Virus record (IMG/VR): IMGVR_UViG_3300037070_009294
Coordinates: 1-28,033 of that record
Strand: one strand, 5' to 3'
Length of the DNA stretch: 28,033 nt
From: a virus
Shown: in pieces, positions 725 through 27,875 of the stretch
Layout: each line of letters opens with the position of its first letter
How positions within the stretch are numbered: position 1 is the first letter of the stretch
The notes under the pieces: model-generated
The model's input: only the letters and a program-made list of their open reading frames with translations
What the model was told of the DNA's origin: nothing
The model's database searches: none
Made by a program: the position numbers and the translations under genes

Positions 725-3691
725 TTAAATGGGCGGGAACAAGTCCCGCAGTAGCTCGGCCTCGCGGTGTGCTATCTCCTGATACCCTGCGCCCGTGGGA
801 TGGGTGCCGTCTGCGCCAATCCAGCCCAGAGCGGGGTCACGCAGTAGTTTGCGCTCGTCCAGACCCAGCCTGGCGTAGTAGAGACGGTCCACCACCTCGG
901 TAATCCAGACGGCGATCACGTCGTCTGCGCCACTGGGCCAGCCTGGGTCGGTGCCCGAAGGAATGGTGACAATCACCTTACATAATGGCCAGGCAGCATG
1001 TACCATGTCCAACCCGTCCAGCATGTTGGCCTGGAAGGTGGCCTTCAGCGCCGCCTCATTGACCATGCCTGGTTCGCCACGGTGGTTGGTGCCCAGCTTC
1101 CAGTAGTAGACGTCGGGGGTAAGCCCGGTGTCCACCACCTCGGCTATCTTAGCGGGCAGCGTGGTAAGCCAATCGCCCACCTCACGCCCTCCGGTAGCGT
1201 CCACCTGAATGAAGTGCGCCCCGGCCCCGCGTGTTATTTCGGCGTACCACTCGAACCACACTTCCCAACTGCACATGGTGTGGCCCACGATGGGGAAGTC
1301 CTCCGGGGTGGGGTCCAGCACCACCGATTTACTGTCACCCGCCACCACGCACAGCAGCCCCTTGGTGCCTTGCGCCGGCGGTATGACCGGCACAGCACCC
1401 AGACGGTAGACCGCCAGAGCGCTGGGGATGGCCGAACCTGCTGCCAGTGACCAACCTTTAGCCCCGGCGTTAAAGGCGTCACCAGTGGAGTGCAGGGCTA
1501 TAAGGCTACCGGGCATGAACTGCGCATGAACCTCGTCACCCTCCCAGCGCACCGACAGACGATGTATAGCGCCAGGGGCCACCACGTAGGTCTGCACGTC
1601 TTTGGCCACAGGCACCCCGGCGTTGAAGTAACCGATGGACGCCTGGTCCAGGTTCTCCGAAGCCCTGACAAACCAGTAGCTGTCGGGGGCACTCTGGCGG
1701 AAGCGTATCTCCGCAGTTGAGCCGCTAACCACATCCAACTCCACCGACAGCGCCCCGTCGCCCTCAGGCAGTGTGCCTGCCTCGGTGGCGGAGGGGCGGG
1801 GATTGCGGTAGTAGGTGGGGCCGTTGATAAAGGACCACGGCCCACCCAAATCGAACATGCCCAGCGGCTTCACCTCGACTGCACCACTGTAGGCAAACTG
1901 CCACTTTACGGGAGTGGCCGTATTGAAGTCGCCCGTGTCATGCATCTGCGGCGCCCACATGAACTTCCAGGGGTGGAGGTTGGTGCGGTAATAGATGGTC
2001 GAGCCGGTCACCGCCAGCACTATGGCCAGATGGTACTCCAGCGTGGGGTCATGGGCTATGCCGGTAGTGAGTGAGCCGCTGCCCTGGAAGACCGAGAACA
2101 CCCCGGAGCCTGCGTTGACGCCCGTGCGCACGACGAAGTCATCGGTGGTGAGCGACCAGCCCGCGCTGAACGATGCACCCTTGACCGGGGACAGGATGAA
2201 GCACACACCTGGCTCACGGCCCACGAACTCACCAGACAGCACCGGGTCATGCAGACTGGTGGCGGCACTGTCGGCCACCAGACGCCTGCGCTCCACACGG
2301 TACTTGTTGGAGGTGTCGTCGATGGTCATGTGGTCGGCTGATTGCAACTCACTGTAGTCGGGTGCAGGGGTCAGTGTGTCCGTCTCGAAGTAGAACGGAC
2401 CGTCGAAACTGTCGGCCAGGACAGAGCCGGTGGCGTCGTTCAGGTCAGCCAACAGGTCGGCGCTCATGTTGTTAAGGTCGGAGAATACGTCATCCTTGAG
2501 GGTGCCGTCGTCCTCCATACTCACCGATAGGCGATTGGTCAGCGACCCGGCGCTGCCCGCCGAGTTGGCCAAATCGGTCCAGATCCAGGCAGGCACGGCA
2601 CTGGGCAACGGCGTGGCCGGGGCTGTGGCCCCCTTGGCTGCCCACATGGCATATATGTCGAAGTCTGCCGTGCCTGCGGTGCGCTGCACATAGACGTCGG
2701 CACGGGTAACCGTGCTGTTGGGCGGGGTAATGTTCTGGTTCAATAGGGTGACGGCCACCCCGTTGGGGGTCTGGGTGGGACCGGCCACCACGCTGCCCAC
2801 CACACCGAGGTCGTTGTACCAGGCCACCACCAGGCGCAGGGTGACCCCCGCCGCTGCCTTAACCCTGGCGGCAAATGATAGGGCGTCGGTGGTCAGTAGA
2901 CCGGCCTCATCCAGCCACATGAACTTACCGCCACTGTCGGTTACGTTATGCACCACCAGCGTGGGGAAGCCGTAGGGGCTACGGGTGGGGTTGGTGTCAC
3001 GGGCCATGTTCTGGGGGGTGTGCCAGCGCTCCCGGCTATCCTCATAGGGCGGGGCCGTGTACACCGAATAGGTGTCGGGCATACGGTTGAGCGCAGTTCC
3101 CCCCAGCAGGGCCACCTCGGCCTCCAGCGCTGCTCTGGCTGATGCTTCGGCGACGGAGTGAGCGTCCAGGTCGGCCACCGAGGGGGTGGGCACGGCAGAG
3201 GTTATGTGGCCGGTGACGTTGACAGTGAACGCACCGTAATCCGCCGGCGTGACGCCACTGGGCAGATGGGTGACGGTGACGGTGCCGTCACCCTGCACCA
3301 CAAGGATCGGTACGTTGCCGCTCCAGATGCCACCTGCCTCGCCGGTGTTGTCCTCGCCGGGGTAGAGGTCGCTGACGTCAACGGTGGTGCCCGCAAGGCT
3401 CTCGGCCAATGTGAAGTACAGCGGCGGCACCCAGGGCGGGGTGGGCGGCACCGTGGGATGCTGGGGGTAGGCGGTCAGGCTGAAGTTGGCACCGTCCACC
3501 GGCAGTATGGGCACGCTGAAGTGGCCATACTGGTCCAGTATAATCATCACCCCCTGGGGCAGGCTTACTTCATCGTGGTCGGTGTCGTAGACTATGTCGT
3601 CTCTGGTCAGAAGTAGCTTGAAGCCCTCCAACGGATGGCGTGCTTCGTCCACGTAGGTGCCGGTCAGGGTCACCGGGTCCAGTGCTGCCAT
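725..3691 (-). CDS. Second tail fibre with C-terminal SGNH esterase domain
   Basis: The 988-residue protein is a second fibre or tailspike candidate. Its N-terminus (1-115: VTLTGTYVDEARHPLEGFKLLL, then ILDQYGHFSVPILPVDG) has the beta-sandwich pattern of phage minor tail proteins and of the first 100 residues of the upstream fibre. A short helical stretch at 170-195 (SVADLDAHSVAEASARAALEAE) may trimerise it. The centre (230-760) is made of beta-rich, lectin-like units. The C-terminus is an SGNH hydrolase: AGDSKS (Ser787), KLGTN (Gly867/Asn869) and DGTHP (Asp961, His964). These enzymes remove O-acetyl groups from glycans. TAAGGAG of the upstream stop precedes the ATG by nine bases. Its esterase is divergent from that of the upstream fibre, so the two may act on different acyl sites. 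Confidence 0.8.
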   Translation of the reverse strand: MAALDPVTLTGTYVDEARHPLEGFKLLLTRDDIVYDTDHDEVSLPQGVMIILDQYGHFSVPILPVDGANFSLTAYPQHPTVPPTPPWVPPLYFTLAESLAGTTVDVSDLYPGEDNTGEAGGIWSGNVPILVVQGDGTVTVTHLPSGVTPADYGAFTVNVTGHITSAVPTPSVADLDAHSVAEASARAALEAEVALLGGTALNRMPDTYSVYTAPPYEDSRERWHTPQNMARDTNPTRSPYGFPTLVVHNVTDSGGKFMWLDEAGLLTTDALSFAARVKAAAGVTLRLVVAWYNDLGVVGSVVAGPTQTPNGVAVTLLNQNITPPNSTVTRADVYVQRTAGTADFDIYAMWAAKGATAPATPLPSAVPAWIWTDLANSAGSAGSLTNRLSVSMEDDGTLKDDVFSDLNNMSADLLADLNDATGSVLADSFDGPFYFETDTLTPAPDYSELQSADHMTIDDTSNKYRVERRRLVADSAATSLHDPVLSGEFVGREPGVCFILSPVKGASFSAGWSLTTDDFVVRTGVNAGSGVFSVFQGSGSLTTGIAHDPTLEYHLAIVLAVTGSTIYYRTNLHPWKFMWAPQMHDTGDFNTATPVKWQFAYSGAVEVKPLGMFDLGGPWSFINGPTYYRNPRPSATEAGTLPEGDGALSVELDVVSGSTAEIRFRQSAPDSYWFVRASENLDQASIGYFNAGVPVAKDVQTYVVAPGAIHRLSVRWEGDEVHAQFMPGSLIALHSTGDAFNAGAKGWSLAAGSAIPSALAVYRLGAVPVIPPAQGTKGLLCVVAGDSKSVVLDPTPEDFPIVGHTMCSWEVWFEWYAEITRGAGAHFIQVDATGGREVGDWLTTLPAKIAEVVDTGLTPDVYYWKLGTNHRGEPGMVNEAALKATFQANMLDGLDMVHAAWPLCKVIVTIPSGTDPGWPSGADDVIAVWITEVVDRLYYARLGLDERKLLRDPALGWIGADGTHPTGAGYQEIAHREAELLRDLFPPI

Positions 3692-3703
3692 GAAGGTCGC
3701 TCC

Positions 3704-6700
3704 TTACACTCCGTCGTAGACCAGTGTATCACCAGTCACTGCCTTATACCACTCTTCCGCCGTCCTCTTGTACCCCCGATGCCCTGGATGCGTGCCGTCC
3801 ACGGTCGCTATCTCCACGCCCCCACCAGTGCCAGTGTAGGTGCCGGCGGGGTCGTAGACCCAGGTGGACGTGGCAATATCGAAGGTGTAGGGCAGGAAGG
3901 TGCGCTCGTCGATGCCGGGGAAGCACACGCCGGGGTTCTCCAAAATCAATTCCTCCACCCAACTGTTGATGCGGTCATCGCCCGTGGGGTTGCCCCTGTG
4001 CCACATTCTGGCCAGGTAGAACTCTATATGCTCCTCCGGCCACTTGTTCTTGATGGCGTCGATGATGCCGGTCTGGAACTGTGTCTTCCAGGTGGTCTTG
4101 TCGGCGTCGGTCAAATTGCTGTCATTGACGGTCAGGTTGATCAGCACCTTCTGTGGTGTGTCGGTGGCCGCATCCAGGCTGTCGGGGATGTTGGTGGCGA
4201 AGGTGTCGTCGATGATGTTCGAAACCTGTATGCCACCCTGAGCGGTCTGGTTGGGGCGGGCGTTAGCCCCGGCGCCCTGGCCTATGGCCCACAGATGGCG
4301 GAACATGTAGTTGTATCCGGACAGCCCACCTGCCTGGTCGGTGTCGGTGGAGCCTACGGTCTTACTGTCGCCGATGAACCAGAAGTTGGTGGCGTGCTTA
4401 CCGGTCTTACGGGGCATGGCGCTGCCGGGGACGTATAGCGGCAGCACACGCACTCTGGTGGCTGGGCTGTTCTCGGCAGGTAGACGCCAGCCACCCTCGG
4501 TCAGGTTGAAGGCAGCGGTGGTGTAGTTAAGGCGTGCGGTGTTGGTGCCGGAACATATGGCGTCTATTCTGGCCCCTCGCCAGCGCACTGCAACTCTGGA
4601 GGTGCCCCCGGTGGTAGAGAGGGTGGGGTTGGTGGTGGCTCTGATGGCGAAACCGCCGCCCAACGCCGGATTGTATTCGATCAGGTCCATCGCATTGGAC
4701 CCCTGGGTCAGGCGCAGCACCCAGCAGTTGGCGGCATCGGTGTAATGGAAATAGATGTTCACCACGTCACTTGTGGTGAAATCGTAGTTGGCGGCGATGA
4801 AACCGTCCACCAGACCGGTGCCGGACTGGGGCAACACTGGCCTGACGTGGAAGTAATTGGCCAGCGAGGCGAAGCGACTGAACGCACCACCCAGATAGAT
4901 GGCTTCGACGCTCTGCATGTTCAGCCCACCAGAGTGGTTGATGACGAAGCGGCCCGGTGACACACGGTTAAGGTTGCCGTTGTCGTTGAAGTTCTCGTTC
5001 CACAGCAGTGTCGGCTCGGTAAAGGCACCACCCTTGACGTAGATGTTGGCCCCGAAGTCGGCCACTATAATCCAATACTCGTACTCGGTAGAGGAGGACA
5101 GGGCGTTCATCGGCCCGATAGTAGCGGCGTTTTGCAACACCCGCCAATCGTTATTGGCGAACAACTGAAAACCGGAGCGAATGATGGTGAAGGCGTCGCT
5201 CTCGTTGGCGAAGCCTGCTTTGACCAGACCCGTATTGACGAAGTGCAGGCAGTAGCCGGTCACCCGCTCGAAACTGCTGTCGTCCAGGTCCATGATGTAG
5301 ACGTAGGGGTTGGCGAAGGCAGTGGTGTGGGTGGTGGCGGTCAGTTTGCTGGAAGCTATGCTGTACTTGGAGCCACTGTCCGAGCCTTGCAGTTTGCCCC
5401 ATGCCCCGGCCTCCAGATGGGGGAAGACAATTGGGGAACTCTCCGCCTGGTCGAAGCGGAAGGGGCCGACCATCCAGTCGTACACATTCCAGTAGAACGT
5501 GGCCGTGCCGCCCTCGTCGGTGGTTTCGGTGTACACGGTGCCGTTGATGGTGGCATTGACCGGGGTGTTGGGGTCCAGGCCATGCACCAGTATCTTGTAG
5601 GCATCAATGTAGTTACTGCCAAGCAGGGTAACGGTGAAGATGCGCCCGGTGATGTTGTAGACCAGCGTGGCCTCATCTGCCGTGCCCTGTCCTGCGGCCA
5701 ACCATAGCTCAATAGCTTTGGCCGCCAGGAACCCCTCCACTCTGACCGTCCCGGTGTCCGGTATCGCCCAGGGGGCGTGGCTCATGGCTGCGATACTGTT
5801 GTTCCAGTCAGCCTCGCTTATCTGGGCACCGGTTCCTGCGTCCGGGCGCTGCTGCAGATAGCGCACCGTGTCACCGGTATTACTGGTATGAGGGGTTGCG
5901 AAATTGGACAACCCGGCAGTGGTCATGGCTGCGGTGAAGCGGCTGGACTGGTCGGGCGGCACCACGGTGTTGGCCAAATCGTGGTAGGTGCGCAGATAAC
6001 CACCAGTGTAGTTGCCTGCGGCCAGACGGTGCTGGCGGGAAGCGTAGGCGGTGGGCATGGTGGTGGGGGTGCCGCCCACCATGTTGGCTATGGCGGTGCG
6101 ACCGGCCACGTACTCCTGATACCAGCCGTAGGTGGGGTCGCCGCCAATGTCCGAGGGGGACCAGTAGGAGATAATCTCAGCGAAGTAGTCGGGCAGCTTG
6201 ACTGCTGCGGCGAAACCGGCACCGGAGCCGTAGTCCACCAGCGATTGGTAGACCCTATGGGCTGCTCTGGGGAACTGTACCCTTAGCGCATCCAGCGCAT
6301 CCTTTATATCATAAATCTCCCTGCCGTCGGCGTCGGCCAGCCCCCCTGCGCCATTACGACCACGCAGGCCCACGGCCATTACCACCATACCGTAGCCAGC
6401 CAATCTCTTCAGTATATCAGCGGTGAAGTAGGTCTCGCTGAAGGTGAAGTCATGTATGGCCACCAGCACAGGCAGGTAGCGCCGGCCAATGGGGTAGGCC
6501 ACCGTGGCATGAAGGTCTTCGATGGAGGGGTCGATGCTGGAGGAGTAGACCATGTCCTGCACCACCTCGCCACCAAGGAAACGGTCCACGGTGGGAATGG
6601 TCTGGATGGTGATGCGGGCGATGCGGCTGGTGGTGTCGGAGAGGCCCATGTACATGCCATGTTTGGTGCCGTTGACCCCCAGCACCTCAAACTCATCGTT

Positions 6701-9700
6701 GGTCAGTGACACACCCACCACGAACTGGTCATCCACTATGACCTGTACTTCACGGTCCACCACCACCACCCGCATCAGGTAGGTCTCACCGTGTGTCAGT
6801 GGGAAGTCCACCGAGGCCAGCACCTTACCAACGTTACCGATGTGCCTGACAATGCGCACCACGCTGACCCCGGTGCTGTCCACCAGCGTGAGACAGGCGT
6901 GCATATGGTTGGGGTTATCCACGAAGCGGAAGGCCAACCCCACCTCACTGGTGGCCTGGGTGCCCAGTATAATCGGCGCCTGTATGTCCACGTTCCATCT
7001 GGCTGTCTGGGTCACCGCCCAACTGGCGGCATAGGGCACCGGGCTGTAGGCCATGCCGTCGTCCAGACCCCATACGTTACCGCCAGGGGAAGTGGTCCAC
7101 ACCTGACCATTGGGCATCGACCCCAGGCTGGTGCTGGAGTCGGTACGGTCGTAACTGTCTGCGGCACCAACCACCGACAGGTCGATACGCACTCCCAGTG
7201 CCGTGTCTGCGGCGGTGCGGTTGGTTGTCTCGGTGGCAATAGCGGCGGTGTTGGTGTCGGCGTGGCTGTCCACCTCGTTAATGGCCGCCACCAGGGAGGT
7301 CTTAACCGTGGTGGTAAGGGAGGCGAGGCTACCCTCTACCCCGGTGGCACGGGCTGTCTCAGCCGTTATGGCGGTAGCATTGGTGTCGGCATGGGCGTCC
7401 ACCTCGTTCACTGCAGCCACCAGAGTGGTCTTGTCGGTGGTGGTGAGGGAGGCCAGGCTACCCTCGACCCCGGTGGCACGGGTGGTTTCTGCCGTTATGG
7501 CGGTAGCGTTGGTGTTGGCCTGGCCCTTCACCTCATTAACAGCAGCCACCAGATTGGTTTTATTGGTGGTGGTAAGGGACGCCAATGTACCCTCAACGGC
7601 AATAGCTCTGGCCTCTTCGGTATTGACGTCGTTGGTGCGATTGGTAACCTCTGCGGCTATGGCTGCGGTGTTGGCGTCGGCATTGGCGTCTACTTCGTTG
7701 ACCGCCGCAACCAGATTGGTCTTATTGGTGGTGGTGAGAGACGCCAGGGTGCCCTCTACGCCCTTGGCCCTGTTCTCCTCGGCATCAACATCGGCGATGC
7801 GGTTGGTGACTTCGGAAGCCAGCCCTGCGGTTGAAGTGTCGGCATGGCCATCCACCTCATTTATGGCAGCGGCAAGGCTGCTCTTGTCGGTGGTGGTAAG
7901 GGAAGCCAGGGTGCCTTCTATACCCTTGGCCCTGCTCTCTTCGGCATCAACATCGGCGGTGCGGTTGGTTATCTCGGAGGCGATCCCTGCGGTGTTGGTG
8001 TTGGCCTGGGCCTTCACCTCATTGACCGCAGCAACCAGATTGGTTTTGGCGGTAGTGGTCAGTGAAGCCAATGTGCCTTCAACGCCGATGGCCCTGGCCT
8101 CTTCGGTGTTGACGTCGTTGGTGCGGTTGGTTATCTCGGCTGCCAACCCGGCAGCATTGGTGTCGGCATTGGCGTCCACTTCGTTGACAGCGGCCACCAG
8201 ATTGGTTTTATTGGTGGTGCTAAGCCCGGATAGTGCGCCCTCTACTCCTGTGGCCCGCACCACCTCTGCCGATATGGCGGTGTTGGCAGCATCGGCATGG
8301 TTGTCCACCTCGCTGATGGCCCCGACCAGATTACTCTGGTTGGTGGTGGTGAGGTTGCCCAGCAGCCCCTCGACCCCGGTGGCACGGGACTGCTCCGTGT
8401 CCACATCGGCGATGCGATTGGTTATCTCAGTGGCCAGCCCTGCGGTATTGGTGTCGGCGTGGGCGTCCACCTCATTGATGGCAGCTACCAGATTGGATTT
8501 CTGCGTGGTGGTGAGAGCGGACAGGTCGCCCTCTGCGGCCATGGCACGCTCGGCCTCGGCTGCGATGGCCCCGGAGCCACTGTTGGACTGGCCCTTCACC
8601 TCGTTAATGGCCAGCACCAGATTGTCCTTGGCCGTGGTGGACAGGTTGCCCAGCGTACCTATGGCGGTGGAGTTGGTGTCGGCATGGGCGTCCACCTCGG
8701 TTATGGCGGCCACCAGATTGAGCTTGGTGGTGGTGGACAGTAGACTGAGGTCGCCCTCCACACCCTTTGCTCTATTCTCCTCCGTGTCCACATCGGCGAT
8801 GCGGTTGGTTATCTCCGACGCAAGCCCTGCGCTGTTGGTGTCGGCGTGGCTGTCAACCTCATTGATTGCCGCTGCCAGCGAGGTCTTGACGGTGGTGTTG
8901 AGCGAGGCTAGCGTGCCCTCCACCCCCGTGGCTCTGGTTATCTCCGCCGCCAGCCCTGTTGTGGAAGTGTCGGCGTGAGCGTCCACCTCGTTAATGGCCG
9001 CCACCAGATTGTTCTTGGCGGTGGTAGTGAGTAGGGCCGGGTTGCCCTCTACCCCCAGCGCTCTGGCCTCCTCGGCGTTGACGTCGTCGGTGCGTGCCGC
9101 TGTCTCTGCGGCGATGACCGCAGCGTTGGTATCGGCATGGTAGTCCACCTCGTTGATGGCTTCGACCAGGTTATTCTTCTCGGTGGTGGTGAGGTTATTA
9201 AGGTCACCCTCTGCGGCCATGGCCCTGGCTGTTTCAGCCGCTATGTCGGCCTCAAGCTCGTCCAAGATGGCTTGCAGCCCCTCGGAGAAGTCAAGCGTGA
9301 CCACCGACCCCTGCTGGAATATGTCGATCAGGTCGCTCTGGGAGACGATACGAGTGACCCCATAGCGCTGCTCACCCGACTGATGGGGCCACTGGGCATA
9401 AAGGTCCACCGGGCTATCGTCCAATGGAGGGTCGGGCACGGAGATACGCCACACTTCGGGGTCGGCCCCGTTCACCGATTTGCGCACGAAGGCCGAGGCA
9501 CCCTGGACGTTCAGGTGCAAATACTCGGTCGAGGGCAGGCGCACTGTACCGTAGCCCATGACGTCCAGGTTGACCCTCTTCCACACCGGAGTGTAGGTGC
9601 TGCCGGGGTCGGTCAGGTCGTACAGCCCCCTGCTGATGCGGAAGTCGTAGGTTCCCGTCGAGGGGGTAACCTCGTCCAGCATGTCGGTAAACTCGATTGT

Positions 9701-9718
9701 GGTGTATTTCAGTGCCAT
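3704..9718 (-). CDS. Giant tail fibre: coiled-coil repeats, lectin-like, alpha/beta-hydrolase-like and SGNH esterase domains
   Basis: The 2004-residue protein reads as a receptor-binding fibre. Residues 1-150 are a beta-rich tail-attachment domain. Residues 155-845 hold 14 repeats centred on a TTT-x-K-x-NLVAAINEVD motif, a trimeric coiled-coil shaft. Residues 870-1045 look like a laminin-G/concanavalin-type domain (VGLAFRFVDNPNHMHACLTLV). Residues 1065-1345 resemble an alpha/beta hydrolase of the S9/acetyl-esterase type, with a nucleophile-elbow-like YGSGAG (Ser1165), HDLANTVVP at 1246-1254 and His1314. Residues 1420-1765 appear as two further jelly-roll-like units. Residues 1775-2004 are an SGNH hydrolase: FIGDS (Ser1785), TVND (Asn1865) and DGTHP (Asp1974, His1977). 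It likely binds and deacetylates a surface glycan. The ATG has GGAGAG upstream. Confidence 0.85.
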   Translation of the reverse strand: MALKYTTIEFTDMLDEVTPSTGTYDFRISRGLYDLTDPGSTYTPVWKRVNLDVMGYGTVRLPSTEYLHLNVQGASAFVRKSVNGADPEVWRISVPDPPLDDSPVDLYAQWPHQSGEQRYGVTRIVSQSDLIDIFQQGSVVTLDFSEGLQAILDELEADIAAETARAMAAEGDLNNLTTTEKNNLVEAINEVDYHADTNAAVIAAETAARTDDVNAEEARALGVEGNPALLTTTAKNNLVAAINEVDAHADTSTTGLAAEITRATGVEGTLASLNTTVKTSLAAAINEVDSHADTNSAGLASEITNRIADVDTEENRAKGVEGDLSLLSTTTKLNLVAAITEVDAHADTNSTAIGTLGNLSTTAKDNLVLAINEVKGQSNSGSGAIAAEAERAMAAEGDLSALTTTQKSNLVAAINEVDAHADTNTAGLATEITNRIADVDTEQSRATGVEGLLGNLTTTNQSNLVGAISEVDNHADAANTAISAEVVRATGVEGALSGLSTTNKTNLVAAVNEVDANADTNAAGLAAEITNRTNDVNTEEARAIGVEGTLASLTTTAKTNLVAAVNEVKAQANTNTAGIASEITNRTADVDAEESRAKGIEGTLASLTTTDKSSLAAAINEVDGHADTSTAGLASEVTNRIADVDAEENRAKGVEGTLASLTTTNKTNLVAAVNEVDANADANTAAIAAEVTNRTNDVNTEEARAIAVEGTLASLTTTNKTNLVAAVNEVKGQANTNATAITAETTRATGVEGSLASLTTTDKTTLVAAVNEVDAHADTNATAITAETARATGVEGSLASLTTTVKTSLVAAINEVDSHADTNTAAIATETTNRTAADTALGVRIDLSVVGAADSYDRTDSSTSLGSMPNGQVWTTSPGGNVWGLDDGMAYSPVPYAASWAVTQTARWNVDIQAPIILGTQATSEVGLAFRFVDNPNHMHACLTLVDSTGVSVVRIVRHIGNVGKVLASVDFPLTHGETYLMRVVVVDREVQVIVDDQFVVGVSLTNDEFEVLGVNGTKHGMYMGLSDTTSRIARITIQTIPTVDRFLGGEVVQDMVYSSSIDPSIEDLHATVAYPIGRRYLPVLVAIHDFTFSETYFTADILKRLAGYGMVVMAVGLRGRNGAGGLADADGREIYDIKDALDALRVQFPRAAHRVYQSLVDYGSGAGFAAAVKLPDYFAEIISYWSPSDIGGDPTYGWYQEYVAGRTAIANMVGGTPTTMPTAYASRQHRLAAGNYTGGYLRTYHDLANTVVPPDQSSRFTAAMTTAGLSNFATPHTSNTGDTVRYLQQRPDAGTGAQISEADWNNSIAAMSHAPWAIPDTGTVRVEGFLAAKAIELWLAAGQGTADEATLVYNITGRIFTVTLLGSNYIDAYKILVHGLDPNTPVNATINGTVYTETTDEGGTATFYWNVYDWMVGPFRFDQAESSPIVFPHLEAGAWGKLQGSDSGSKYSIASSKLTATTHTTAFANPYVYIMDLDDSSFERVTGYCLHFVNTGLVKAGFANESDAFTIIRSGFQLFANNDWRVLQNAATIGPMNALSSSTEYEYWIIVADFGANIYVKGGAFTEPTLLWNENFNDNGNLNRVSPGRFVINHSGGLNMQSVEAIYLGGAFSRFASLANYFHVRPVLPQSGTGLVDGFIAANYDFTTSDVVNIYFHYTDAANCWVLRLTQGSNAMDLIEYNPALGGGFAIRATTNPTLSTTGGTSRVAVRWRGARIDAICSGTNTARLNYTTAAFNLTEGGWRLPAENSPATRVRVLPLYVPGSAMPRKTGKHATNFWFIGDSKTVGSTDTDQAGGLSGYNYMFRHLWAIGQGAGANARPNQTAQGGIQVSNIIDDTFATNIPDSLDAATDTPQKVLINLTVNDSNLTDADKTTWKTQFQTGIIDAIKNKWPEEHIEFYLARMWHRGNPTGDDRINSWVEELILENPGVCFPGIDERTFLPYTFDIATSTWVYDPAGTYTGTGGGVEIATVDGTHPGHRGYKRTAEEWYKAVTGDTLVYDGV
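7184..9256 (-). repeat. Tail fibre shaft repeats, 14 copies
   Basis: Fourteen copies of a unit containing L-x-TTT-x-K-x-NLVAAINEVDxHADTN occur in the fibre. Distances between the equivalent Leu of neighbouring copies are 54, 43, 54, 32, 43, 54, 43, 54, 54, 54, 54, 43 and 43 residues, all equal to 32 plus a multiple of 11. The variable part is 11-residue blocks such as NRIADVDTEEN. DNA copies are similar but not identical. Confidence 0.9.
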
Positions 9719-9721
9719 AGC

Positions 9722-11758
9722 TTAACTCTCCGCTTGCCATTCATAAAGGCGACCGCACAGCTGATTGATATACTGGGTTGTATCGTTCTCAAATCCTGGA
9801 GCATATACATGGATGGCCTGCGAGATGGTCAGACCACGATAGATGTTGCGAAACCACAGGTCCATCTCGTCCAATGCACCGTCGGTCCAGTTGGCGTAGG
9901 CACCGAACACACCGCAGCAAGCGGTGGTCCACGAGCCTATCTGCCGCCCCCAGGTCTGCCGGCGAATGTTACCCACATTGTACGCCCCGTCCATCTGGGC
10001 CGGGTTGCTTCCAACCTCGCTCTCCTTGACCACGATGGCCAGCCAGAAGGCCATGTTCAGACCCTTCAGCACACCCGTGTCGAAGTACCAACCACCCACA
10101 TGTTCGTCCAACAGTGGGCTGTTGTAGGAGGTCATGATGGCGGTGAACAGGTCTTGACTGATGGTGGTGGGGCCGATTATCTGAAAATCTGCGTCGCAGT
10201 TGCCGCTGCCACCACCACCGCCACCGCCACCGCCACCAGTCTCAATGTCCGAGCCGGACAGGTTGAACATACGGGGGTCCAACCCCATGGCGCTGACGTT
10301 GGGGCCGGGGTAGGAGTGGGTGGTTAGCTCCCACACCCCGGTCTGCACCTCGTAGTTCAACTGCTCCCAGGCCGTAAACGGTGGCTGGGCAATAGAGGTG
10401 ATACCTTGCGTGCCCGGTTCCTTACCCAGCAGGATGTGAACGTACTTGCCATAGCCCCAGGCCGCACCCAGATGGGGATTGGCTATCCATGAATGGGTGC
10501 TGACCGTACTCCAGCCGTGGGGCTGATTGGTGTGGTCCAACTTCTTGAGGACAACCAGTGCTTCGGGCACCTCCACGATGGGGGCATAGACGTCACCCTG
10601 CACCTTGCACAGTGGACCGGCGTAGCTATCGTTGGTGGCAAAAGACAGTGCCACTTCCGGCTCATGGCGGCCCTCGGCCAATGAGTAGATGACAGCGGCG
10701 TTGCCCCCATCCACCGTGTCATGGGACGAACCATGCTGCTTGGGGTTGGCGCTGTAATAGGCGAAGTCGTCGGTCTGCACCACCCAGAAATGGGGGCTGT
10801 CCCAGCCCTGCTCGGCTATGGGCGGTGAGAGCAAAGAGTAGGGGCTATGTATGGCCACGATAGAGTTCCATGCCGCCAGCGTCGATGGTTCCTCCCCTGC
10901 CACCAACCTTATCAGGGCCACGCAGGCAGACACAGGTTGGCCCTCAAGGTCCAGTGCCACCTCCTGCTCACCCTGCAGGTACATCCTGACCAGAGCATAC
11001 CAGTCCCCCAGCGGATTGGTCAGGGGGTCGGCGCTGTCCATCGACCAGAAGTTGACGATGCGACCGTAGCCTATAACCCCGTAACCCACAGGCTGATATC
11101 CCAGCAGCGCATATGCTGCCTCTGCCGCAGCCTGATTATCGTAGGTAATAGTGATAAAGGGGTTAAACGGTCGCACCCCCAGGTCGGGTAGTATACCGAA
11201 GCCACCCCCACCACTACTGGTCAGGGAGCCACGGTAACCATAGCCAAAATTATGCGGGGGTGCGCCGCCGTCGTCGATAAGGTGGGGGGTGTTGGTGCGC
11301 AGCAGCCAATCATCGGCGTCGCCCTCAATGGTCCAGGTGCCGTTGGGCATACTCACTTCGCCGATGACACCACGTTCGGTCAGTACGTAGCCGTGGGTGC
11401 CGTCGGTGGGCTTGGCCCTGATCAAGATGGGATTGGGGGTGGCATCGTGGGTCATCGGTGCCAGCGTCGGACCCCAGACCCAGCCACTAATGGTGTTGTC
11501 CCAGTATAGGGGATGGTAGGGCTGGCCCACGTCGGCCCTGTCGCTGCCGCACAGCCAGCGCTGGCCCATGGCGTAGGTGGTGTGTTCGGCGAAGTAGGGT
11601 GCGGTGCGCAGGCGTCCGGTGGCGGAGTGCGCCGGCACATTGTACTTCCAGTCCGAGCGCACCTGGCCACTGACCGCTTCAGGGTAGAAGGTATCGGCCC
11701 TCTCCAGGAGTGCTATTTGTGACGCACGAGGACGAGGGCTGAAAAGCTCACTCTTCAT
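9722..11758 (-). CDS. Virion-associated tail protein with C-terminal glucosaminidase/lysozyme-like domain
   Basis: The 678-residue protein has three parts. Residues 1-505 are an unrecognised structural region rich in Gly, Tyr and Trp, possibly tail tip. Residues 508-517 are ten consecutive glycines, a flexible linker. Residues 525-678 resemble phage glucosaminidase (GH73-like) domains: GVLKGLNMAFWLAIVVKES, with Glu579 the likely acid catalyst, YNVGNIRR at 593-600, YANWTDGALDEMDLWF at 621-636, and ISQAIHVYAPGFENDT at 645-660, as in 'Y-P-x-W-x-x-G...Y-A-P-x-x-D-N'. Such domains cut peptidoglycan glycan strands so the tail can reach the membrane. It overlaps the hub gene by four bases; GGAGAG at its 3' end serves the next gene. 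The enzymatic domain is well supported; the function of the large N-terminal region is not. Confidence 0.8.
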   Translation of the reverse strand: MKSELFSPRPRASQIALLERADTFYPEAVSGQVRSDWKYNVPAHSATGRLRTAPYFAEHTTYAMGQRWLCGSDRADVGQPYHPLYWDNTISGWVWGPTLAPMTHDATPNPILIRAKPTDGTHGYVLTERGVIGEVSMPNGTWTIEGDADDWLLRTNTPHLIDDGGAPPHNFGYGYRGSLTSSGGGGFGILPDLGVRPFNPFITITYDNQAAAEAAYALLGYQPVGYGVIGYGRIVNFWSMDSADPLTNPLGDWYALVRMYLQGEQEVALDLEGQPVSACVALIRLVAGEEPSTLAAWNSIVAIHSPYSLLSPPIAEQGWDSPHFWVVQTDDFAYYSANPKQHGSSHDTVDGGNAAVIYSLAEGRHEPEVALSFATNDSYAGPLCKVQGDVYAPIVEVPEALVVLKKLDHTNQPHGWSTVSTHSWIANPHLGAAWGYGKYVHILLGKEPGTQGITSIAQPPFTAWEQLNYEVQTGVWELTTHSYPGPNVSAMGLDPRMFNLSGSDIETGGGGGGGGGGSGNCDADFQIIGPTTISQDLFTAIMTSYNSPLLDEHVGGWYFDTGVLKGLNMAFWLAIVVKESEVGSNPAQMDGAYNVGNIRRQTWGRQIGSWTTACCGVFGAYANWTDGALDEMDLWFRNIYRGLTISQAIHVYAPGFENDTTQYINQLCGRLYEWQAES

Positions 11759-16679: not shown

Positions 16680-16929
16680 GAAGAACCCCCTTGGGTGGCC
16701 TCATCTTCTCGCACACTATGCGCAGGTGGGCATAGCGGCTATCGAGTTCCAGCCGCCATGTGGGTATAGTGGGTTCCCCGGTGTACTGGCACCATAACTC
16801 CTGGGGATTGGAGTGGTAAAGTTGGGCCTGGGCATCACGCCACAGCCAGAAGGCGAAGTCGGGCGTGGGCGCTTCTACCCCTGTCTCGGTTTCAGCTCTG
16901 AACCAGTAATTAAAGACAGCGTCTTCAAT
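16672..16929 (-). CDS. Tail assembly chaperone C-terminal extension reached by -1 frameshift (lambda T-like)
   Basis: In the -1 frame relative to the chaperone gene, an open frame runs from 16959 to a TGA at 16672-16674 and has no start codon of its own with a ribosome binding site. If ribosomes slip at CCCTTTA (16935-16929), the first new codon is ATT and 85 residues are added to the first 179, giving a 264-residue fusion. The extension reads IEDAVFNYWFRAETETG and later WRDAQAQLYHSNPQELW, a helical, aromatic-rich sequence. It ends by overlapping the tape measure start (ATGCCTGA). This is the geometry of lambda G-T, in which the T part binds tail tube subunits. Without it, 195 bases before the tape measure gene would be unexplained. 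Confidence 0.85.
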   Translation of the reverse strand: MEDAVFNYWFRAETETGVEAPTPDFAFWLWRDAQAQLYHSNPQELWCQYTGEPTIPTWRLELDSRYAHLRIVCEKMRPPKGVLHA

Positions 16930-17465
16930 AAAGGGCCGTTGAACGAGTTCTCCACCTCCTCACGCATATCTGAACCCACCAGATAGGACAGCACCGATGG
17001 GTCCAGCACCTTGAAACTGTCCTCGTTGCCCACGATGGGGCAGGGTTCGTCGAAGGTCCAATCTTCGATGGCGGCCACGATGTAAGCGGCCAGGCGCAAA
17101 TCACGGCGGTAGATGAGGCGGGCGAACTCCCTTTTGTACTTCATCACCTCCCGTATCTGCTTCTGCTCGGCCACCTCGTACATGGGGTCGTCCTTACGGT
17201 CGTCCCACTCGGCGTAGAAGCTCTGCACCTTCTCATAGGAGGAGTTGGAGATAACCTCGCTGTCTGCCTCAATGTCGTCCAACAGGTCGGTCCAGTCCAG
17301 GTCGAGCGACTTGATGCGCCCGTCGAAGAAGCGCCAGCCCACTTTGGCGTAGTCCTCACCGAACATGTCGGGGTTGAGGTGATGGGCGTTGACGCTGACC
17401 AGCAGCGTTGAGCGGCGGCGGCTCTTGACCAGTTCCGGTCCCTTCAGGACCAATGCGGTAGTCAT
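16875..17465 (-). CDS. Tail assembly chaperone (lambda G-like), zero-frame product
   Basis: This 196-residue protein, between tail tube and tape measure genes, is in the position of lambda gpG, which coats the tape measure during tail assembly and is absent from virions. It is helical and charged, with a conserved-looking segment around 137-165 (DWTFDEPCPIVG, then VLDPSVLSYL) resembling tail chaperones that end in 'W...P.P....L....L'. The ATG follows AAGGAT with a short spacer. Near its 3' end the gene holds a canonical -1 slippery heptamer and hairpin, and a long -1 frame continues past its TAG stop into the space before the tape measure gene. A minority of ribosomes should therefore make a longer fusion (described separately). 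Confidence 0.8.
   Translation of the reverse strand: MTTALVLKGPELVKSRRRSTLLVSVNAHHLNPDMFGEDYAKVGWRFFDGRIKSLDLDWTDLLDDIEADSEVISNSSYEKVQSFYAEWDDRKDDPMYEVAEQKQIREVMKYKREFARLIYRRDLRLAAYIVAAIEDWTFDEPCPIVGNEDSFKVLDPSVLSYLVGSDMREEVENSFNGPLLKTLSLITGSELKPRQG
16910..16935 (-). promoter_or_regulatory. Programmed -1 ribosomal frameshift signal: CCCTTTA heptamer and hairpin
   Basis: The zero-frame codons are C|CCT|TTA, a perfect X-XXY-YYZ heptamer, at 16935-16929. Immediately downstream, TTGAAGAC and GTCTTTAA (16928-16910) pair around a GCT loop with eight base pairs, one of them G-U. The inner five pairs leave a three-base spacer. AGGAGGT at 16960-16954, 18 bases upstream of the heptamer, resembles the Shine-Dalgarno stimulators of bacterial -1 frameshift sites. 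Confidence 0.8.
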
Positions 17466-26195: not shown

Positions 26196-27875
26196 CTAAT
26201 AGCGCTGGCCTGCGGCAGTGGGTCTGGTGCTGAGCAGGGCGATGGAGGAAGGAGGCGGGGCACCAAGGGCCAGGAAGTTATGTCCCAGGCTGCCGGCGTC
26301 AACGTAATCGATCAGGCCATGGGGGAAACGGGTGAAGTCACCCAGCACCTCATCCACGTCATAAGAACCGTCATCGACGATAACGTACAGCCCACCATTG
26401 GCGGAGGCGGCCATGGAGCGTGCCCTGGCCTCCTTATCGCCGGTCACCTTATAAAGCTCAGGCTGGTCAGCGGGGTTGGTGGTGAAGCCGTAGCCAGGAC
26501 CACGCAGGCGATTGGTGGTCTGTTCGGCTGACTGTTTACCGCCCGAACCAGGCTCCTGTTCATGGAGAACGGTCACCGCCCTGCCGTCGCCTTCATATAT
26601 AACAGTGCGACCGTTGTCCAGTAGCAAGGGATAGACCGGATAGGGCAGGCCCATGAGGCGGCCATGCAGTGGATACCACAGTGCAGCCTGGGCCGAGCCA
26701 CCGGCCATGACGTCGATATACTCTTCCCTTTGGTCGGCGCTCCAACGTCCGGCGATGCCATGGCGTATCACGTAGCGCACAGCGGCGAACTCATCGCCCC
26801 ACATGGCCCTTGCCGCTCCCGGCTCAAGGGAGGACATTAGTAGCGAGGCGCTGCGGGGGCCGCTACCGCCCACGGTCCCGGCCTTATCCCATGGCCTGAC
26901 GGTGTTAATGATGCCAAGTGATGGCTGGGAATAGACCCGTCTGATACGTTCGACCTTAAAGACACCGCCCTCCTCCTCCACGCCCCATTCGCCCTTAAAC
27001 TGCTCCCGCTGGGTCAGTTCATCGGCCAACTGCTCGGAGACGTCATAGGAGGCATGGTCGATGCCTGGGTTTTCCCGTCTGATGCCCTGTATATAGAGCC
27101 TGCCCCCGAAGTGCTTATCAGGGCGCGGGGGTTGCCAGACCATATAGGATGCCGACCCTTCTATCTCCTTACGGATGCCTTTAGGTGGCGGGGGCAGGAA
27201 ATAGCCCTGCACGAACTTCTTGGAGGCGCCGCCGGGGTTGGTGTCGGCGTAGGTCTGCACGGCCACCGGCATACCTGGTGGCTTACGCTGGCTTCTGACC
27301 AGAAACTGGTAGGGGTTCCAGCGCTCCTTGTCACCTTCGCGGTCAAAGCGGAACTTATAACGGGTCAGCTCCCCCCAGACGAACAGCTGGCGGGGCACGC
27401 CCACGTAGTTATCCTCATCGCCCGGTCCGGCCATGTAGCCGAAGGTGATGGTGGAGTTGTACTGGGGCCAATATAGCTCCCTGCGCTCCTCGTTCCACAC
27501 CACCTCGCCCGACAGCAGATACTCCTTGAGGAACTTACGGGTCTGCCAGATAATGCCCCCGGCCTGGGTAAGCTGCTTCTCGGTCTCCCTGAAGAAGGTG
27601 GCGATGTAATCCTCCACCGTGACCGAGGTCAATGCCTTAAAGATGCCCCCATCGGTCTTGCCCGACCCTGCCTGGCCCCCGGCCAATACCTCCCGCTCCT
27701 CGGCCATAATCATGGCTATCTGTAGTGGCGAGGGCCAATAGGGAATATACTTGTTAAGCGACATGGCCTGAGCAAGCAGGCACATCTCCTCCTTGGCCTG
27801 GGGGGACTTATCGGGCAGGGCCATGACCTTATTCTGCCAGTGGACGTATGGCGGCGGGGGCGCTCTACGGGTCAC
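26196..27875 (-). CDS. terL: Terminase large subunit (packaging ATPase and nuclease)
   Basis: This is the motor that translocates phage DNA into the prohead and cuts it. Of 559 residues, the N-terminal ATPase has a Q-motif-like PSPLQ near residue 50, a Walker A AGGQAGSGKT at 65-74, a Walker B-like LFVWGEL at 164-170 with Glu169 as the likely catalytic residue, and a coupling motif DTNPGG at 211-216. The C-terminal RNase H-like nuclease shows WDKAGT (Asp330), HEQEPGSGGK (Glu439/Glu441) and IDYVDA (Asp523/Asp526), as in the Terminase_6C type. The length is normal for the family. The start is GTG, overlapping the upstream stop; a GGGG run lies eight bases before it. The usual Asp before the Walker B Glu is Gly here. 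It is followed by a 90 bp gap and then the portal gene. Confidence 0.95.
   Translation of the reverse strand: MTRRAPPPPYVHWQNKVMALPDKSPQAKEEMCLLAQAMSLNKYIPYWPSPLQIAMIMAEEREVLAGGQAGSGKTDGGIFKALTSVTVEDYIATFFRETEKQLTQAGGIIWQTRKFLKEYLLSGEVVWNEERRELYWPQYNSTITFGYMAGPGDEDNYVGVPRQLFVWGELTRYKFRFDREGDKERWNPYQFLVRSQRKPPGMPVAVQTYADTNPGGASKKFVQGYFLPPPPKGIRKEIEGSASYMVWQPPRPDKHFGGRLYIQGIRRENPGIDHASYDVSEQLADELTQREQFKGEWGVEEEGGVFKVERIRRVYSQPSLGIINTVRPWDKAGTVGGSGPRSASLLMSSLEPGAARAMWGDEFAAVRYVIRHGIAGRWSADQREEYIDVMAGGSAQAALWYPLHGRLMGLPYPVYPLLLDNGRTVIYEGDGRAVTVLHEQEPGSGGKQSAEQTTNRLRGPGYGFTTNPADQPELYKVTGDKEARARSMAASANGGLYVIVDDGSYDVDEVLGDFTRFPHGLIDYVDAGSLGHNFLALGAPPPSSIALLSTRPTAAGQRY

Follow-up and report, generated by a model that had tools for sequence, protein, structure and literature searches.

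Paralogous SGNH fibre tips, a glucosaminidase-like domain and an alpha/beta-hydrolase fold with altered catalytic residues encoded by the tail genes of a siphovirus fragment

In the receptor-binding proteins of Klebsiella prophages, SGNH hydrolases rank with the most frequent enzymatic domains (PMC13123978), and O-deacetylation or ester hydrolysis has been reported for gp63.1 of the Escherichia coli phage G7C, gp41 of the Acinetobacter phage Aristophanes, gp66 of the Pectobacterium phage Possum and SGNH fibres of Klebsiella prophages (PMC13123978, PMC8471582, PMC11058221, PMC9569702). Tails may also combine such domains with cell-wall enzymes: the Tal protein of Staphylococcus phage phi11 contains an endopeptidase and an SGNH domain, and Gp49 is a second tail peptidoglycan hydrolase of the same phage (PMC4876445, PMC5380687). 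Several SGNH domains can occur together; in Klebsiella prophage KPS3995-contig_8 the spike TSP2 has two distinct SGNH domains, and its sister spike adds one more (PMC12115436).

The window analysed here is the whole of the 28,033-base virus record IMGVR_UViG_3300037070_009294, from an uncultured phage. Its genes lie on the minus strand in the order terminase, portal, S49-type head protease, major capsid protein, connector, tape measure (PF20155, 3.3e-20), P0004, P0003, P0002 and P0001. P0003 (9722-11758), P0002 (3704-9718) and P0001 (725-3691) are intact minus-strand open reading frames (ORFs) downstream of the tape measure, with the coordinates given in a preliminary description of this DNA. 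Between the tape measure and the fibre genes, P0004 (11755-13782, minus strand; 675 residues) is a tail hub-like protein by ORF and position, and Pfam/PHROGs-type family searches gave no match for it. Two features identify P0001, P0002 and P0003 as genuine tail genes of a siphovirus fragment: they follow the tape measure, and the stalk of P0002 matches tail-fibre families. Gene order and sequence would place their products in the virion, at the very tip of the tail.

A close parallel is Tal (phi11 Gp44, 80alpha gp59), which also belongs to a siphovirus tail and carries a C-terminal SGNH domain encoded downstream of the tape measure (PMC4876445, PMC7048315). Tail peptidoglycan hydrolases are present in phi11/80alpha as they appear to be here, and the Tal SGNH domain, like one of those described below, matches Protein Data Bank (PDB) entry 2WAO. 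The phi11 SGNH domain, however, resides on a hub protein, whereas here two fibres carry one each, and in the present tail the cell-wall domain is glucosaminidase-like and accompanied by an alpha/beta-hydrolase-fold domain. KPS3995-contig_8 TSP1/TSP2 similarly bring several SGNH domains together within a single adsorption apparatus; TSP2 has two in one chain, in contrast to one per fibre here, where the similarity extends through the preceding beta domains, and the description of these spikes mentions no cell-wall enzyme (PMC12115436). The fibres of G7C, Aristophanes, Possum and the Klebsiella prophages carry SGNH domains on a fibre or spike, as here, but share only the fold superfamily with P0001 and P0002, with no detectable overall sequence similarity. 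Given phi11 and the KPS3995 spike, this set of enzyme-like domains in one tail is not as unusual as had been proposed. What is new is that the two tips are paralogues and that an alpha/beta-hydrolase-fold domain lacks its serine; taken as a whole, the tail is a new combination of known parts.

The C-terminal regions of the two fibre proteins align end to end (P0001 431-976 with P0002 1418-1989; BLASTP 2e-23, 23% identity over 592 alignment columns), indicating that a single unit was duplicated (or acquired twice). This unit of ∼570 residues comprises two successive beta domains (P0001 430-774, 1370-2404; P0002 1418-1774, 4397-5467; both minus strand) followed by the SGNH domain (P0001 775-988, 728-1369; P0002 1775-2004, 3707-4396; both minus strand). 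Identical residues occupy 44/175 and 39/160 aligned positions in the beta domains and 56/201 (28%) in the SGNH domains. By this alignment the SGNH domains are diverged paralogues, and the idea of two unrelated esterases was rejected. It is possible that the two tips act on different substrates, which fits paralogy at this level of identity.

In the record, Pfam family PF13472 (Lipase_GDSL_2) has two matches and no others, at the C termini of P0001 (E-values of 1.2e-7 and 1.3e-9, the latter above the curated cut-off) and P0002 (0.0016 and 3.5e-5, the latter below it). The catalytic Ser of the GDS motif, the block II Gly, the Asn and the Asp-x-x-His pair are all in register in the two domains (Ser787, Gly834/835, Asn869 and Asp961/His964 in P0001; Ser1785, Gly1828/1829, Asn1865 and Asp1974/His1977 in P0002), an in-register arrangement of GDS, N and DxxH that arises in 7/20,000 and 38/20,000 shuffles of the P0001 and P0002 domains, respectively. 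The P0002 tip is further linked to the esterase domain of Endoglucanase E, CtCE2 (PDB: 2WAO; phmmer 6.6e-4), with which it has in common the SGNH core around the Asn block; CtCE2 is a cellulosomal enzyme without phage context, unlike the P0002 tip. An AlphaFold2 model of the P0001 tip was of low confidence (pLDDT 51, pTM 0.50). Its best PDB matches in Foldseek were mostly SGNH esterases (PAF acetylhydrolase, CE2, CE3, Ape1), with TM below 0.4 and no match at E ≤ 0.001, and many of its best matches in a viral structure library were phage esterases, with no strong TM-score. The family matches and in-register residues bear out the earlier proposal that both SGNH domains are complete in their GDS, N and DxxH blocks, and both are supported as SGNH hydrolases, with putative esterase activity toward an acylated substrate.

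The third enzyme-like protein, P0003, begins with 519 residues that end in a Gly-rich linker (10202-11758, minus strand) and match no known family in Pfam/PHROGs-type searches. Residues 520-678 (9725-10201, minus strand) resemble an NlpC/P60 protein, P0010, of Candidatus Chlorohelix (Chloroflexota), with tblastn 1e-4 in 7.3 Gb and pairwise BLASTP 2e-11. The matching domain of P0010 is a Glucosaminidase domain (PF01832; 1e-6, 0.3 bits under the cut-off), and Glu579 of P0003 (codon 10022-10024) aligns with a Glu both of P0010 and of true members of the glucosaminidase family. Direct searches with residues 520-678 gave no Pfam or NCBIfam match and no useful PHROGs match; against a profile built from 17 actinobacterial glucosaminidases, P0003 scored within its shuffles and P0010 was recognised at 17.7 bits. 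Two genome scans toward Chloroflexota were also made, one yielding no confirmed relative and the other only NlpC proteins of Streptomyces, Nocardioides and Loigolactobacillus. The glucosaminidase assignment made in the preliminary description thus stands through a two-step homology link and an aligned Glu, but fails with direct family profiles. With moderate confidence we regard the domain as glucosaminidase-like (GH73-like), with a predicted role in peptidoglycan cleavage.

These observations also bear on whether the domains need be catalytic. The SGNH tips might serve in receptor binding with no need for catalysis, or the P0003 domain might be another lysozyme-like or a non-catalytic wall-binding domain; the lack of a score for P0003 against glucosaminidase profiles would suit this, as would the GxND block, which is imperfect in both SGNH domains (GTNH in P0001, with the Asp lost; TVND in P0002, with the Gly lost). 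We consider it unlikely, although it is the best placed of the alternatives to our preferred explanation: the catalytic Ser, Asn and Asp-x-x-His are kept in both paralogues at 28% identity, as expected under selection, which argues for function in both SGNH domains, and phage SGNH fibres tested elsewhere were active (PMC13123978).

The N-terminal part of P0001 (residues 1-424; 2420-3691, minus strand), delimited by its ORF, has no match in Pfam/PHROGs-type family searches. P0002 begins with a presumed attachment domain, placed by position (residues 1-145; 9284-9718, minus strand), followed by a stalk of 43- and 54-residue repeats (residues 146-850; 7169-9283, minus strand). The stalk matches tail-fibre families in PHROGs (phrog_25848, 6.5e-44) and, in tblastn, tail fibres of Rhizobium-group phages. 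At least 11 copies of the 43- or 54-residue repeat are present; the repeat is of a kind common to tail fibres of Rhizobium/Agrobacterium myoviruses. Residues 855-1045 (6584-7156, minus strand) may form a beta-rich, lectin-like domain, as hinted by a Gal-bind_lectin match at E 0.099.

Between this region and the tip of P0002 lies a domain (residues 1056-1345; 5684-6553, minus strand) that had been described as alpha/beta-hydrolase-like. It obtained no Pfam score and was not recognised by any family library tried, including NCBIfam and PHROGs. In the phylum of a Streptomyces locus, matches were found in 33 of 396 genomes (best E-value 1.7e-5, calculated per genome), and all five of the matched proteins scanned with Pfam were alpha/beta hydrolases (S9, S15, DLH, Hydrolase_4). 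To keep the argument from being circular, the loci for an S9 profile were chosen by Pfam family alone, without reference to the query; P0002 residues 1103-1270 scored 12.8 bits against this profile, and the highest score among 2,000 shuffles was 6.9. A profile made from homologues picked with the query scores the domain at 4e-18, a circular result that was not counted. An AlphaFold model calculated without relatives (pLDDT 36) was too poor for a fold search, and custom DNA patterns for the SGNH and alpha/beta motifs returned nothing or chance matches only (one match, L011, was a capsid-like reading frame; L022-L024 had no match to the domain). The homologue searches, alignments and S9 profile support the domain as a true but distant S9/S15-type relative.

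The catalytic positions of this domain are altered. Nine homologues align with it without gaps over the nucleophile elbow, in an alignment at 23% identity: the P0002 segment RVYQSLVDYGSGAGFAAAVKLP lies against sequences such as RIGIYGQSHGAAVALLAASRYP. The nucleophile Ser of the homologues stands opposite Asp1162 (codon 6233-6235) and the Gly two residues before it opposite Leu1160, such that the elbow reads Leu-Val-Asp1162-Tyr-Gly; the acid Asp of the HGxxDxxIP motif stands opposite Asn1250 (codon 5969-5971). Multiple alignment, pair and triple alignments and the S9 profile agree on this register. In the alignments and the S9 profile alike, the GxSxG nucleophile pattern and the catalytic Asp after strand 7 are absent from the domain. 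His1277 aligns with the catalytic His in one alignment, and His1314 is the other candidate. Compared with prolyl oligopeptidase and X-Pro dipeptidyl-peptidase hydrolases (PF00326, PF02129), P0002 retains the core strand order and the GGTP..P..Y region but has Asp in place of the Ser nucleophile and Asn in place of the acid.

The preliminary description had proposed four enzymes in one tail, with Ser1165 as the nucleophile of this domain. Were all four domains active, the YGSGAG segment would supply a Ser-x-x-Gly motif and His1277 or His1314 the histidine, within a fold whose relationship to hydrolases is real. Yet Ser1165 lies three residues past the nucleophile position, so its use requires a three-residue shift within the strand and elbow, in the absence of GxSxG, and three alignment routes place Asp1162 at the nucleophile without gaps and Asn1250 at the acid. 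We therefore rejected Ser1165 as the nucleophile and consider a serine-hydrolase mechanism unlikely; a tail with all four domains active is improbable. Of the four proposed enzymes, the two SGNH domains and the glucosaminidase-like domain are well founded; the fourth keeps its fold relationship but probably does not work as a serine hydrolase. Haloalkane dehalogenases and epoxide hydrolases typically have an Asp at the elbow, with an aromatic residue and a Gly directly after it. An active Asp-nucleophile enzyme of that kind would account for Asp1162 lying exactly at the nucleophile position before Tyr-Gly-Ser, and for the possible alignment of His1277 with the catalytic His, but is very improbable, given Asn1250 at the acid position, Ser-type S9/S15 enzymes as the closest sequence relatives and no plausible cell-surface substrate. 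To our knowledge, this enzyme class is not known from phage tails. Most likely, the alpha/beta domain of P0002 is a non-catalytic binding or spacer/scaffold element.

From the gene order, the paralogy of the tips, the SGNH residues and the kinship between the alpha/beta domain and S9/S15 hydrolases, together with the substitutions in that domain, we propose the following explanation, which we consider probable as a whole. P0001 and P0002 would be tail fibres or spikes, each ending in a paralogous beta-beta-SGNH tip; the fibres would bind a surface polysaccharide, from which the SGNH tips would remove O-acetyl (or similar acyl) groups. The long repeat stalk would give P0002 a longer reach, and its mid-fibre alpha/beta-hydrolase-fold domain would act in binding or spacing. 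After docking of the tail, the hub-proximal P0003 would cut peptidoglycan locally for DNA entry. A heavily acylated surface glycan on the host, as previously suggested, goes further than this, and nothing in the sequence demonstrates such a glycan. As to the host, the Chloroflexota match of P0003 offers a weak clue.

If this explanation is right, one tail contains an esterase tip in two diverged copies and a hydrolase fold that persists although its catalytic serine is gone, and could serve as an example of phages duplicating and repurposing enzyme folds in fibres. It would also provide deacetylase candidates for a host that is possibly a member of the Chloroflexota, for which few phages are known. 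The finding leaves the overall view of enzymes on phage tails as it was.

Neither phage records nor IMG/VR contained a close relative of this phage or whole-protein relatives of P0001, P0002 or P0003, so conservation of the catalytic residues and architecture cannot be checked in kin; in IMG/VR, searches with the terminase and with the alpha/beta region of P0002, like those with P0001 and P0003, gave no close relatives. The large terminase (26196-27875) is closest to that of Methanothermobacter phage psiM100, at 26%. Near the end of the gene preceding the tape measure (16875-17465) there is a slippery heptamer, C CCT TTA (16929-16935, minus strand), after which the -1 frame is open to about the start of the tape measure, resembling the programmed frameshifting of tail assembly chaperones. 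At the other end of the window, a 67-residue ORF (514-717) with Cys/His pairs (CTYFNGESQCP...CAEH) possibly encodes a small zinc-binding protein. Another ORF (3-491), truncated by the window end, encodes a transmembrane-like stretch at the N terminus and then a charged region resembling a coiled coil, and its product is possibly a lysis-module membrane protein.
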